Of a stretch of DNA of 64,000 nt, positions 1,344-59,917 are shown in pieces. Position numbers and translations under genes: made by a program. This DNA is from Oncomelania hupensis. Lineage: Eukaryota > Mollusca > Gastropoda > Littorinimorpha > Pomatiopsidae. The stretch spans positions 43,678,515 to 43,742,514 of the forward strand of contig CM072511.1 of NCBI GenBank assembly GCA_036898135.1, given 5' to 3'. How positions within the stretch are numbered: the first letter of the stretch is position 1; the number at the start of each line of letters is the position of its first letter. The notes under the pieces were generated by a model. The model had not been told where the DNA came from. It ran no database searches and saw only the letters and a list, made by a program, of their open reading frames with translations.

Positions 1344-2066
1344 ACCCCTTGGGGTCATGAGCAATCTTGTCACTGTAGATTGTTCTAACCTATAAAGGGA
1401 AAAGTAAAAGCCCCAGTTGAAAACCTGTCTTGCCTTTGTAGGCATGACAGTTTCACTGCGGCAACAGTCCCCCCCCTCCCCCCCCCCCCCCCCCGTTGGA
1501 GTGCCGGGGGTTTCAGTATAAATAGTACCCCCACTTTCTGGAAATTTAGTGCTTTAAATTCCCACTGTCGCTGTCTTCCTCGTTTGCTCTTTCTCATTCC
1601 TGCTCTGTTCTATCACTCTGCTATACTATCTTCTTCTTCGCTAGATCAATGACCTACCTTTTTTCTTGAAAACTCTTCCTGGACAAGACTCCTTGTTTGT
1701 GTATGAGGTCTGTTGGATCAGCTTGGGAGTGTTGGACGCTTTCTGCCGGGTGGTCACTAGGGCTTCCTATGATTGTATTATTTAGCACTATAGGCATTTT
1801 ATATGTATACGTTTTTGTTGATGACTTGTAATGATGGTTGTATTCTATTTTGTTTTTGTAACCGGGGGTTCGCGTAGTTGAGGTAAACCCTCAGCCGTCC
1901 CCCGCGTGGGATGTCTTTATTGTAAAGTGACTGGCCGGTGGAGGGCATTCAATTTTCCCACTGGGGTTGTTTCGGCAGATCTTTTATGCGGATCGGGGGT
2001 TGCCCGGTCCTGATTTGGCTCGGAAGAGTCCGCTGGACCTAAAGCAACAATAAATCAATCAATCAA
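1344..2066 (+). mobile_element. Element A, long subfamily, full length (TSD TACTACTAAAAA)
   Basis: An unclassified non-autonomous retroelement. It starts CCCCTTGGGGTCATGAG, has about 130 bp of 5' extension and an expanded poly-C tract at 1470-1494. Then come the GTGCCGGGGG / AGTATAAATAG block, a body, and the 3' end GAGTCCGCTGGACCTAAAGC with an (AATC)n tail. A 12-bp target duplication at 1332-1343 and 2067-2078 fixes both ends. No A/B-box tRNA head is evident. Confidence 0.85.
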
Positions 2067-2079
2067 TACTACTAAAAAG

Positions 2080-2264
2080 AAGAAGAAGAAGAAGAATACA
2101 AGAACAAGAAGAAAAGGATAATGTTGATGATAGCAATAATAACAATAATAATAATAATAACAACAACAACAACAACAACAACAACAACAACAACAATAAT
2201 AATAATAATAATAATAATAATAATAATAATAATAATAATAATAATAATAATAATAATAATAATA
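2080..2264. repeat. Compound (AAG)n (ACA)n (ATA)n microsatellite
   Basis: Follows the Element A copy and its TSD. It holds AAG, AAC and AAT trinucleotide blocks in succession. Confidence 0.97.
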
Positions 2265-2801
2265 TTAAAGAGAATTATTCGCGCATTTTTCTAAACAGAA
2301 AGAGTCAATTGAAAGCGTAAATGTGGATGATTTCATTTCATACTTGTTGAAAATATCTTTTTGAAGAGTAGCTTACGTTAGTGCTGGTGTTTAAGAAATA
2401 TTTTACAGCTAAAGTAAATAAAATGATTCCAGTTTTCGTCCGGCAATTCGTCAGCCTTTTCAGACCTTTAAATTAAAGATTGCCCGATGATAGAAAATCC
2501 TCTAATAATAATTATTGTCTTATGGCACCCATTTTTATGTCTGGGTATAGCCTACTTAAAACTAACGTGAGTGACCTGTGTATGTTTCAAATCTAGAAAT
2601 CTTAAGCCGTTTTGAACCGTTAATAATTGCTGTCGGATCTAAGAACGAAAATAATAAAGTATGACCCCAGTTACCTGACTTTTTGTTGTACTTTACAGCG
2701 CATTAAGATTTAAATGAAGGTTTTCTCACGGAGACAATGTTGTAGTCCTAAAGCTAACAAAGCAGGGTCTTTCATTATCACAACGTCGCGAGCTCGTTAT
2801 G

Positions 2802-2981
2802 GCCTGTCTCAAGTCGAAGGTTCGTGGAAGTTCACGAAAATGTTTTCCGAGGTTCTCAGATCTAAAATCCTAGGTTCCTGAACCTTTGTTGTGTCTAAGA
2901 GATTCGGGAACCTAGGTTCGAGATCTGAGAACCTTGAAAAAAGGTTCCTGAACCTCCACGAATCTTCCAATTGAGACAGGC
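2802..2981. mobile_element. Foldback MITE-like element, copy 1 (180 bp)
   Basis: The termini GCCTGTCTCAA and TTGAGACAGGC are inverted. Arms of about 80 bp (AAGGTTCGTGGAAGTTC, GAGGTTCTCAGATCT and complements) would form one long hairpin. There is no coding capacity. Confidence 0.8.
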
Positions 2982-3089
2982 TGTTAGCCTACCTTTGTGT
3001 TTATAACTAAATTAATCACAGTTGACATACAGAGTTGAAGACAGCGCAGCTCGTGGCTTCTTGTGGACTCTTAAGCCAATAGGCATTAT

Positions 3090-3229
3090 TCCTAAATAAA
3101 CCGAAAGTAGAGTTGCTTCCCCTGAAATGCGGTACACAATACATGTTGACAGCTATCCTAAATAAACCGAAAGTAGGTCAATGAGAGTTGCTTCCCCTGA
3201 AAAGCGGTACAAAATACATGTTGACAGCT
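3090..3229. repeat. Two-copy tandem duplication (66 and 74 bp)
   Basis: Units beginning TCCTAAATAAACCGAAAGTA lie at 3090 and 3156. The second carries an extra 8-bp GTCAATGA; otherwise only a few substitutions are seen. Confidence 0.9.
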
Positions 3230-56891: not shown

Positions 56892-56903
56892 AACACCACA
56901 GTT

Positions 56904-57051
56904 GATTGATTGATTGATTTATTGTTGCTTTAGGTCCAGCGGACTCTTCCGAGCCAAATCAGGACCGGACAACCCCCGATCCGCATAAAAGATCTGCTGA
57001 AACAACCCCAGTGGGAAAATTGAATGCCCTCCACCGGCCAGTCACTTTACA
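56904..57051 (-). mobile_element. Element A long-subfamily 3' end, 5'-truncated (TSD AACACCACAGTT)
   Basis: Only the 3' 148 bp with an (AATC)n tail. A perfect 12-bp duplication at 56892-56903 and 57052-57063 shows it inserted in truncated form, as expected for target-primed reverse transcription. Confidence 0.93.
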
Positions 57052-57295
57052 AACACCACAGTTTGGGCTGCCTTCAAAAAGACATCTAAATTATGAATCA
57101 TACAATTCACGAGCCATAGTTTTGCAACAGGAATTCAAATGTAAAACCTCTGTAAAACTGTGTCGATAAAAAATTATCACAAAACCCAGCAGACATCATT
57201 CTGCAGCTCTGCATCTAACAAATTATTTATATGTCATAATGGTAAAATTACAAGTTATGCTGAATCAACACAGTGACCCCACATGCTTCACTATT

Positions 57296-57692
57296 AAAGG
57301 TAAAGATATTCCAGTAACCTTTCAGTCGTTTAGGACACCTTTTTCCTGGGCCAGCTTGATGAGGGCAATGCCCATCTCCTCTCCCTCGCTGCACCAATCA
57401 CAGCTGGGTGGACTGAGGTAGTCCCATAGCCTTGTGGCCGTAGGGGAGCGTGATGTTGGAGATCACACTTATCTTGGGCCAGCGTAATGAGCGTGATGCC
57501 CATCTCTCTCCATCGCTGCTTTACCTTCCCCACCCTTTGGAGAGTAGGTACTCAGTCACAGTTGAGTCAACTGGGGGCGTTGTTATTTGTCGCTTCATGT
57601 TTTGCGGTCACCCATCCAAATGCTAACCGTACTGGACGGTGCTTAACTTGCGACACAGTAGCGAGTGCTCCAACCACTGCGCTATCCGACAC
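57296..57692 (-). mobile_element. 5S-rRNA-derived SINE, second copy with internal duplication
   Basis: The head and 5S-like box are at the right end (+ strand CGGTCACCCATCCAAATGCT). The body segment around GGGCCAGC..GATGCCCATCTC occurs twice in tandem (about 57352-57400 and 57476-57524), making this copy longer than the one at 14.5 kb. Confidence 0.85.
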
Positions 57693-59382
57693 CCCTGGGG
57701 TGACTGGGGTACGTTGTGCATTTGTTTGATTCTTTCTGACATTCAGTAATTGATTTCCAACCATGGAAGGGGGTGAGGGTGGGTGGGTGGAGGGTGGCAC
57801 ACTGACACACATCTAAGTATTAACCAGGCTTGCCCAAACCACGTTACTATGCAACCAAAATCATCACATGTTCCATCTCAGTAAAACAAACATACACAAA
57901 ATCTTCCAGACACATTTCACTCATACCCATTCAATTCTAATAAATAAATAAGATAAAGCTAAACATTTAAAAAAAAGTGTATCCCAAATACAAACCCACA
58001 TCTATGACTACCAAGGGTCGGTAGACTTAAATCAGAATCAGAAAACTGTATTATGGAAACAAAAGAAATTCAAAAGACACACATTTATGAACACATCTCT
58101 TTAAAAAAAAAAGGGGGAAAAAAAAGAAAAAGAGTTAATTTCATCCCTATATATATTTAAAATGATATAGAACCAGACGTTTAATGATTGATCATGTACT
58201 TTAAGCTAAACAATGTACTTTATTTCACAAGACACAAGTATTGTAAAATAAAATAATACAAATGTTTGGGGTATTTTGAACTTGTATCCTGATTCAACAA
58301 GAGTCTGAAAAAATGTTTTTATCACTTTTGTTGAAGAATAGTCTATGAATAGACTCGTCCAAAAAAGAAACAACTTTTGTGTCTTTTATTATTTAAGACT
58401 GTACATAGGTGTCTGAATGAAACTGACTTTGTGTCATGAAAATATCAACAGTATAGATATTAAACTAATTCTTAACAAGTCAGCTAAATATGAACTATTA
58501 ACTTAACGGCGTTAGACAGTATTGCGATACAATCAAACCAAATTGCTTCATCGCTGTAGTTAAAATATTTATTGGATCTAAAAAGAGTGAAACAAAATAT
58601 GTATAGGTCAGTGTGAAATTCACATGCAGTTTACTGTAGTTACTTCCAATATAACAATATTTGCCAACACAATCAAAAATAATTATCCATTAGCTTTGCA
58701 TAACTTGAAATCATAATAACGTTTATTCAGAAACATTTTTTTAAAAGCCTTCATCATCATTCCTACAGCATACACACAAAAGCAGAAAATGTCTGCATGG
58801 GCCGGTAAAAAAATCCAGTTCTATATATTTCTTAGAAGAAAAAAAATGAATTTAAAAAAACAGCATGTAGTGCTATGTACCTTTTACCACAAAAAAAAAA
58901 AAAAAAAAAAAATCTATTATTGTGACATTATCAATCACAGTAAGTCCCCATCTTCACCCTAATCCATTGATTTCAAAAGCAAAAGCACCAATTTGAAAGT
59001 TGTGTGCTAATCTAAAGCACAAGAATATTTATGATGAGGTTTAAAAATTCAAAATTAGAACAAAGAGGTGGTGATAAAATACCTCATAAACTCTGCTGCC
59101 ATTTGTTCACAGCGTACTATCACAACACGGAACTTGATTAATTCATGATTACTGACAATGCGAAAATGGACCCAACAGCAAGGACATTCAACAGAATTTT
59201 TCAAATGATGATCAACATGTATGCCAACACATACATGTATGCATACACACTGCTCTCACTTTAAAGTTCCATAGAAAGTATCAATTCTGTTGTTAAAAAA
59301 AAACACACACATATATACACAAACCTTTCATTCTAGAGTACCAATTCAAGATGATAGTCCATTGTGCACAAAACCAAAGAAA
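57693..59382. other. A-rich noncoding DNA
   Basis: No recognisable repeats except A runs (58891-58912). It continues the bias seen toward EDC3. Confidence 0.45.
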
Positions 59383-59917
59383 TTAGTCATTGTTTATAGA
59401 GTCCAGCGGACTGCAAAGAACCAAATCAGGACCACAACTTGGTTGAAAGAGTACTCACCCCCGATCCATATAAAAGATCTGCTGAAACAACCCTAATGGC
59501 AACACTGAAGGCACTCCACCAGCCGGTCACTTTCCAATAAAGGCATCCCATGCAGGGGATGCTGCAGCTTTACTCAAATTTATCGAACCCCATTTACAAA
59601 AATAAAACAGAATATAAACATCATTATAAAATATTAAACACATACATACCAAAGGCCTACATTGCTAAATAATACCATAGAAGGCCCTAGTGACCATTTG
59701 GCAGGAAGCGTCCAAAATCCTCAAGCTTACCCAACAGACCCCATACACAAATGAGGAGCTTTTGGAGAGTTTTTCAAGAAAAAAGGTAAGTGACTGGTCT
59801 AGCAAAGTAGGAACGAGAAAGAACAAACGAGAATGACAGAAACGGTGATAACTGAAAGCATGAGTAGTCCACAAAGTGGACTACTTATAAGAAAACCCCA
59901 GCATTCCAACGGGGGAT
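59383..59917 (-). mobile_element. Element A third subfamily, diverged
   Basis: Covers the full structure from a reduced (TTAG) tail to CAACGGGGG at the right end, with a shortened middle and many substitutions. It is the Element A copy nearest to EDC3. Confidence 0.8.

Follow-up and report, generated by a model that had tools for sequence, protein, structure and literature searches.

Fifty-eight pairs of short and long interspersed elements (SINEs and LINEs) with a common 3' tail have been described, among which CR1 and RTE partners predominate (PMC3747384), and a LINE protein has been reported to bind its own 3' stem-loop (PMC4176376). In stringent pairs such as UnaSINE and UnaL2 of the eel, or the TS SINE and RTE LINE of tobacco, the SINE has a LINE-shared 3' end, a stem-loop and a short repeat tail. 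A LINE-shared 3' end that may fold into a stem-loop and a short repeat tail are also seen in Element A, a dispersed family of short non-coding copies in a 64,000-nucleotide stretch of the Oncomelania hupensis genome (assembly GCA_036898135.1, contig CM072511.1, positions 43,678,515 to 43,742,514), the whole of which is referred to here as the window. Element A differs from the stringent pairs in that no RNA polymerase III (Pol III) promoter was detected in it and in that its partner has an RNase H domain. Judged from its sequence, Element A is very probably a SINE-like non-autonomous retroposon that depends for its mobilisation in trans on a LINE of the endonuclease-reverse transcriptase (RT)-RNase H type, since Element A carries the last 49-59 bp of such a LINE. 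It is termed SINE-like and not a strict SINE because a Pol III promoter was sought by pattern and not found; Element A works like a SINE though it stands outside the strict class.

Several other systems are similar in part. The Sadhu elements of Arabidopsis (PMC2848041) are also non-coding, with LINE-type target-site duplications (TSDs) and neither a small-RNA head nor Pol III boxes, but they carry a poly(A) tract where Element A has a LINE-shared 3' end and a microsatellite tail. In trypanosomatids, short non-autonomous elements (SINE-like/SIDER) are likewise moved by a LINE; they have a promoter without Pol III boxes in the 5' end, and their 5' 77 bp are common to the LINE (PMC8190864), whereas Element A shows no 5' sharing with the LINE copy compared below. 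Bov-B LINEs with (CAA)n and Sauria SINEs with (ACCTTT)n are related elements with common 3' ends and different microsatellite tails (PMC13295347), so that distinct tails are not the oddity that the original prediction, made from the letters of the window, had seen in them. There the partner is of the RTE clade, and the accessible part of that report does not mention the micro copies described below.

The partner LINE was recognised among 20 loci fetched around hairpin matches at the start of contig 1. At several of these the match to Element A was limited to the last 50-65 bp, and locus L015 (minus strand, about 2100-7200) holds a LINE whose 3' end carries the shared domain. The frames of this LINE are interrupted and each was searched separately, giving Pfam matches to Exo_endo_phos_2 (E = 3.2e-21), RVT_1 (1.6e-29) and RNase_H (1.9e-13) in separate frames of the one copy. 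Its RT-RNase H part, used as a protein query, found 2,658 relatives at E <=1e-20, and the best 120 of these include proteins with an endonuclease, RT and RNase H. The combination of an APE-type endonuclease, RT and RNase H is that of the I superfamily, to which the partner LINE may by its domains belong, and the gastropod I-superfamily LINEs Nimbus and Ingi have the same order in ORF2 (PMC11203168).

Compared with the L015 LINE, the long-form consensus of Element A aligned over 49 bp at 95.9% identity (E = 1.9e-18), the short-form consensus over 59 bp at 93.2% (E = 2.9e-21) and the third-form consensus over 35 bp at 82.9% (E = 1.7e-5), in every case at the 3' end. Element A thus has its 3' end in common with a LINE from this genome, as LINE-tail-sharing elements do, and with a LINE 3' end matched by both the long and the short form it can no longer be called unclassified in the strong sense originally proposed. 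Outside the 3' end, no significant match of Element A to the L015 LINE copy was found, the upstream part included; that Element A is a piece of this LINE was therefore rejected. Exact junctions in the genome numbered 25,540 of the element type and 1,651 of the LINE type. Loci L014 and L016 have related 3' domains with different upstream sequence and tails, which suggests that further LINE families may carry the 3' domain. A stretch of about 68 kb (C1:117908252-117976140) was also observed to hold 13 of 100 listed exact LINE 3' junctions, denser than the rest of the list.

Within the window, self-comparison and consensus searches resolved Element A, about 570-700 bp in size, into three forms, each with its own tail. 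The 22 segments returned by the consensus search were merged into about 18 copies or fragments, four segments at 43041-43434 being taken as one copy and two at 59383-59915 as another. The word TATAAATAG occurs 11 times (1.12 expected from shuffled sequence) and GTCCGCTGGAC, with at most one mismatch, 15 times (0.29 expected). The dispersed non-autonomous element of three forms and about 18 copies in the original prediction is therefore confirmed by self-comparison, consensus search and motif excess, and the sites of the three full-length long copies, one truncated long copy and the short and third forms agree with that earlier listing.

The full-length long copies lie at 1344-2067 (plus strand, (AATC)n tail, TSD TACTACTAAAAA), 34854-35554 (plus, (AATC)n tail, with a TSD) and 47977-48679 (minus, TSD CAGTTGAAAAAAT), and consensus search placed a copy 5' truncated to 148 bp at 56905-57052 (minus, TSD AACTGTGGTGT). 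The 3' stem-loop domain (GGTCC...GGACC) is exemplified at 2006-2039 and 35493-35526, both on the plus strand, in the first two of these. Short copies were found at 11489-12040 and 24996-25565 (both plus, with an (ATGTA)n-type tail), 30246-30809 (minus), 44012-44587 (minus) and 54194-54732 (minus, with a 36-bp TSD); the (ATGTA)n tail assigned to the short form is borne out by pattern and by the first two copies, though not by the copy at 30246, in which no repeat tail was seen. The third form is represented at 51929-52513 (minus, (AACT)n tail) and 59383-59915 (minus, diverged, in two segments) and, by consensus search, at 22442-22979 (plus, 5' truncated), 44591-45091 (minus, partial, adjoining the short copy at 44012), 46380-46923 (minus) and 46960-47441 (minus, partial), with third-type 3' end fragments at 15638-15694 and 46302-46346 (both minus). 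Consensus search also identified a composite of short-form and third-form pieces at 43041-43434 (minus). The earlier statement that all copies share TATAAATAG was too strong, as this region is missing from the copies at 22442 and 44591 and the position reads TATAAATGG in 46380 and TATAAGTAG in 59383. The long form looks like the short form with about 126 bp gained at the 5' end. One copy outside the window (L011, about 486-800, minus) combines a third-form body with a 3' domain of the short/long type and with a (CCTAT)n tail, so that 3' ends seem to be swapped between forms.

The genome (1.45 Gb in 428 contigs) was searched with exact patterns, the reversed patterns serving as controls. The 33-base head pattern gave 24,502 matches and the 34-base 3' stem-loop 38,946, each with none for the control, and GTCCGCTGGAC had 81,900 occurrences, its reversed counterpart 157. 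Form-specific tails, as originally proposed, were upheld by thousands of matches to the tail-specific patterns (6,754 for (AATC)n, 17,548 for (ATGTA)n and 3,717 for (AACT)n), with controls of 0. Of 87 element matches in the sampled loci and the window, the 50 that exceed 480 bp were aligned and 37 dropped; on average the 29 long copies differ from their own consensus by 2.3%, the 13 short copies by 2.8% and the eight copies of the third form by 6.9%, the long-form sample being skewed to young copies because it was picked by an exact tail pattern.

Insertion was studied in the first 30 of the 6,754 (AATC)n matches, all on contig 1. On the long form, 17 of these loci start at position 1 or 2, two at 19, nine at 637-639 and one each at 538 and 194. 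TSDs were analysed in 28 loci (L036 and L057 dropped), classed as 16 full copies, nine micro copies and three starting at position 19, one of which (L044) is placed at position 2 in the count of starts above. TSDs were recognised in 26 of the 28 (15/16 full, 9/9 micro and 2/3 position-19), with lengths of 8-15 bp and a median of 12 bp for full and micro copies alike. A pyrimidine precedes the TSD in all 26, with T at -2 in 17 and A as the first TSD base in 16; where the letters agree, the caller carries the TSD on into the tail, and this alone can lower the frequency of A, though not of G, at -1. Nothing beyond T-pyrimidine/A emerged as a target motif. An empty site was also recognised: the long copy in L009 interrupts LINE sequence that is unbroken in L015, and at least CTTCAGGCTCTT is duplicated there. 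In the window, for which TSDs of 11-36 bp had been predicted, an exact-match caller assigned TSDs of 12, 9, 13, 13, 36 and 11 bp to six of the 22 segments. TSDs, 5' truncation and the empty site are the marks of target-primed reverse transcription (TPRT), to which this element had been attributed and to which the sequences point.

It is improbable that Element A is instead an internally deleted derivative of an autonomous LINE, comparable to RIME or SIDER, which would have kept the 5' promoter and 3' end of its parent. A fixed 5' start base in 17 of 30 loci and a LINE 3' end would suit such an origin; against it, no significant match beyond the 3' end was found with the L015 LINE, upstream sequence included, a comparison confined to this one LINE copy, the 5' end of which is provisional.

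Still less probable is that Element A is a Pol III SINE with a decayed or unusual promoter, even though it resembles a SINE in size, in its tails and in its LINE-shared 3' end and the long consensus has a B-box-like GTTCAAACC at position 39. No A box was found by pattern in any of the three consensus sequences, and isolated B-box-like words occur in the long consensus only. In one long and one short copy, compared with Rfam at E values up to 10, no tRNA, 5S or 7SL head was found and all matches were sub-threshold, in keeping with the predicted lack of a tRNA or 5S head; the small-RNA head was rejected as a candidate, and the sole Rfam tRNA match in the window falls outside the listed copies. 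Runs of at least four T occur seven or eight times in each consensus, and a run of T5 or longer is present in 50 of 50 near-full copies. In animals Pol III terminates at T runs, so that transcription by RNA polymerase II (Pol II) is more likely, and the RNA of Element A is probably made by this enzyme. A TATA-like block put forward as the promoter in the original prediction was rejected: among 9-mers its conservation lies at about the 45th (long), 58th (short) and 9th (third) percentile, no higher than the rest, and as the block is within the copied RNA it could hardly be the upstream TATA of that RNA. A solo LTR or DNA transposon is most improbable, since the two copies inspected have internal 11-bp inverted pairs only, without terminal inverted repeats, and TSDs of variable length around 12 bp, repeat tails and 5' truncation all speak against it.

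For mobilisation of Element A in trans by the LINE, the following course may be envisaged. Element A RNA would be made, probably by Pol II; its 3' domain would be bound by the LINE protein, as the shared sequence and the behaviour of other stringent LINEs suggest; and the LINE, as the presumed enzyme, would nick the target at a preferred T-pyrimidine/A and use TPRT to copy the RNA, with the observed TSDs of about 12 bp as the result. The 3' domain can be folded as GGUCC/GGACC around GGCUC/GAGUC, a two-stem fold in which 90% of cells are paired and covariation is not above shuffles. The small hairpin GTCCGCTGGAC, near which the copies had been said to end, is indeed an abundant motif, but as a structure it is one of two possible foldings of this domain.

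A further class of insertion consists of the 3' domain and tail alone. Nine of the 30 (AATC)n-tailed loci are insertions of 61-65 bp that start at the edge of the 3' stem-loop; after the TSD, seven begin with C, CC or TCC before GGTCC, as in the long form, and the other two (L030 and L054) have one extra base before that start. LINE copies are described as truncated at various positions (PMC3747384). Here, of the 13 truncated copies among the 30, nine have starts no more than 3 nt apart at the 3' domain edge (binomial P about 3e-19 under uniform truncation). Among 14 consecutive listed matches to the (ATGTA)n pattern, six run on into Element A, seven do not and one (L061) is complex. TSDs were found for four of the seven presumed micro copies (L063, L069, L071 and L072, the last with one mismatch), and as none was found for the other three, part of this group may be 3' ends from different LINE families. 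A LINE-like T precedes an intact GGTCC in five of the seven, L071 having T with an altered stem and L069 having A; L071 also interrupts a sequence, an RT-like frame by eye, that is unbroken in L015. Further micro copies were seen within satellite sequence in L021 and L024, and L025 holds a pair of them.

A profile search of 329,556 bases of sampled loci and window returned 91 domain matches: 33 long, 15 short, 15 third, three LINE and 25 without recognised upstream sequence. Eleven of these 25 have a strict TSD, and the remaining 14 include third-type ends, fragments, L021 and L024 (TSDs with one mismatch). No long- or short-type micro copy was found in the window by this search. The exact 8-base context is kept in 33 of 36 long or short copies with an exact stem-loop in the sampled loci, mostly from the (AATC)n sample, and an estimated 9,000 or so (about 6,000-11,300) of the 38,946 exact stem-loops are contiguous with neither element nor LINE, on the assumption of 80% retention for the LINE junction; as this residue may hold ends of further LINE families and composites, it bounds the micro copies and does not count them. 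T-prefixed stem-loops number 8,376 against 1,651 exact LINE junctions and may in part be decayed CpG sites of Element A. An array in L073 (C1:4154075-4154784), in which 3' domain, tail and a short spacer are repeated in tandem, has ten exact matches at 75-bp spacing, so that this satellite seems to have grown from a micro copy.

Micro copies appear to be a second product of the same LINE machinery. It is tentatively proposed that they arise from a trimmed, protein-protected template: the RNA would be shortened from its 5' end to the part shielded by the bound LINE protein and then inserted by ordinary TPRT. In both element-type and LINE-type templates, micro copies start mostly 0-3 nt outside the 5' edge of the two-stem fold. 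A minimal LINE template of about 35 nt of 3' stem-loop plus tail might thus have been inserted in thousands of copies by way of trimmed LINE and SINE-like RNAs, a suggestion made with some reserve. The main rival, somewhat more doubtful, is an early release of the reverse transcriptase once the anchored stem-loop has been copied, with the RNA untrimmed. A common start region in LINE- and element-type copies would fit such a property of the shared 3' domain, yet the enzyme would meet a blocking structure first on its 3' side, and the copies end at the 5' edge. The trimmed template is preferred because a 5'-to-3' nuclease halted at a protein-bound structure would leave ends of this kind, whereas a reverse transcriptase, if blocked, should halt on the opposite side. 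It is unlikely that micro copies are an independent small-RNA family or the 3' ends of further LINE families. Many (ATGTA)n micro copies do have AATAACC before the tail, as LINE ends have and the listed full short copies do not, and the 75-bp array indicates that the unit is able to multiply as DNA too; the (AATC)n micro copies, on the other hand, have the letters and tail of the long form, with TSDs at the stem edge.

Several results weigh against the account given here of Element A and its micro copies. No Pol II promoter was seen in Element A. One long LINE copy with interrupted frames was compared in full, and its tail is of the (TTGTA)n kind, neither (AATC)n nor (ATGTA)n; it is a candidate partner for the long and short forms, and no partner was found for the third. 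The sampled loci all come from the start of a single contig. The strict caller gave no TSD for 16 of the 22 window segments, and none was found for the presumed (ATGTA)n micro copies L064, L067 and L070 (3/7). In the stem-loop, double changes were matched or exceeded in 189 of 500 shuffles and the covariation score in 37 of 500, with one slid version scoring higher; RNAalifold picked a small GTCC-GCT-GGAC hairpin, and the two-stem fold was optimal in two of five folded sequences, with z-scores of -1.77 to +0.51 over the five. Covariation is thus no proof of the stem-loop, and the small hairpin is a possible alternative.

With Element A the described systems gain a retroposon in which no Pol III promoter was detected and whose 3' end is that of an endonuclease-RT-RNase H LINE. 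In the literature searched, no title or start of an abstract described Element A or micro copies, and none of the string matches was on repeats by title. The micro copies are weightier than Element A itself, given that their truncations cluster at the 3' domain edge. If that edge delimits the stretch of RNA that a LINE protein holds, the cause of LINE truncation points would become directly testable from genome sequence, and the genome would record the position of a LINE protein on its RNA. On the same condition, units of 58-65 bp would rank among the smallest true retroposons and be able to seed tandem satellites.

Other repeats and frames were observed in the window. Two open reading frames of at least 180 aa (10310-10972, minus, and 33002-33580, plus, the latter of 192 aa) fall outside the Element A copies, and neither had a Pfam match at E 0.001. 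By eye the first resembles a frame at 7725-8732 (minus) in L015, both being RT-like and of another LINE type, which we take to be RTE-like. A repeat of about 270 bp is present in two copies (8018-8289 and 17790-18062) that are 91-94% identical; ARAGORN recognised no tRNA, and Rfam gave a tRNA match in one copy at 8215-8286 (minus, 32.1 bits), so this repeat is possibly a tRNA-derived SINE.

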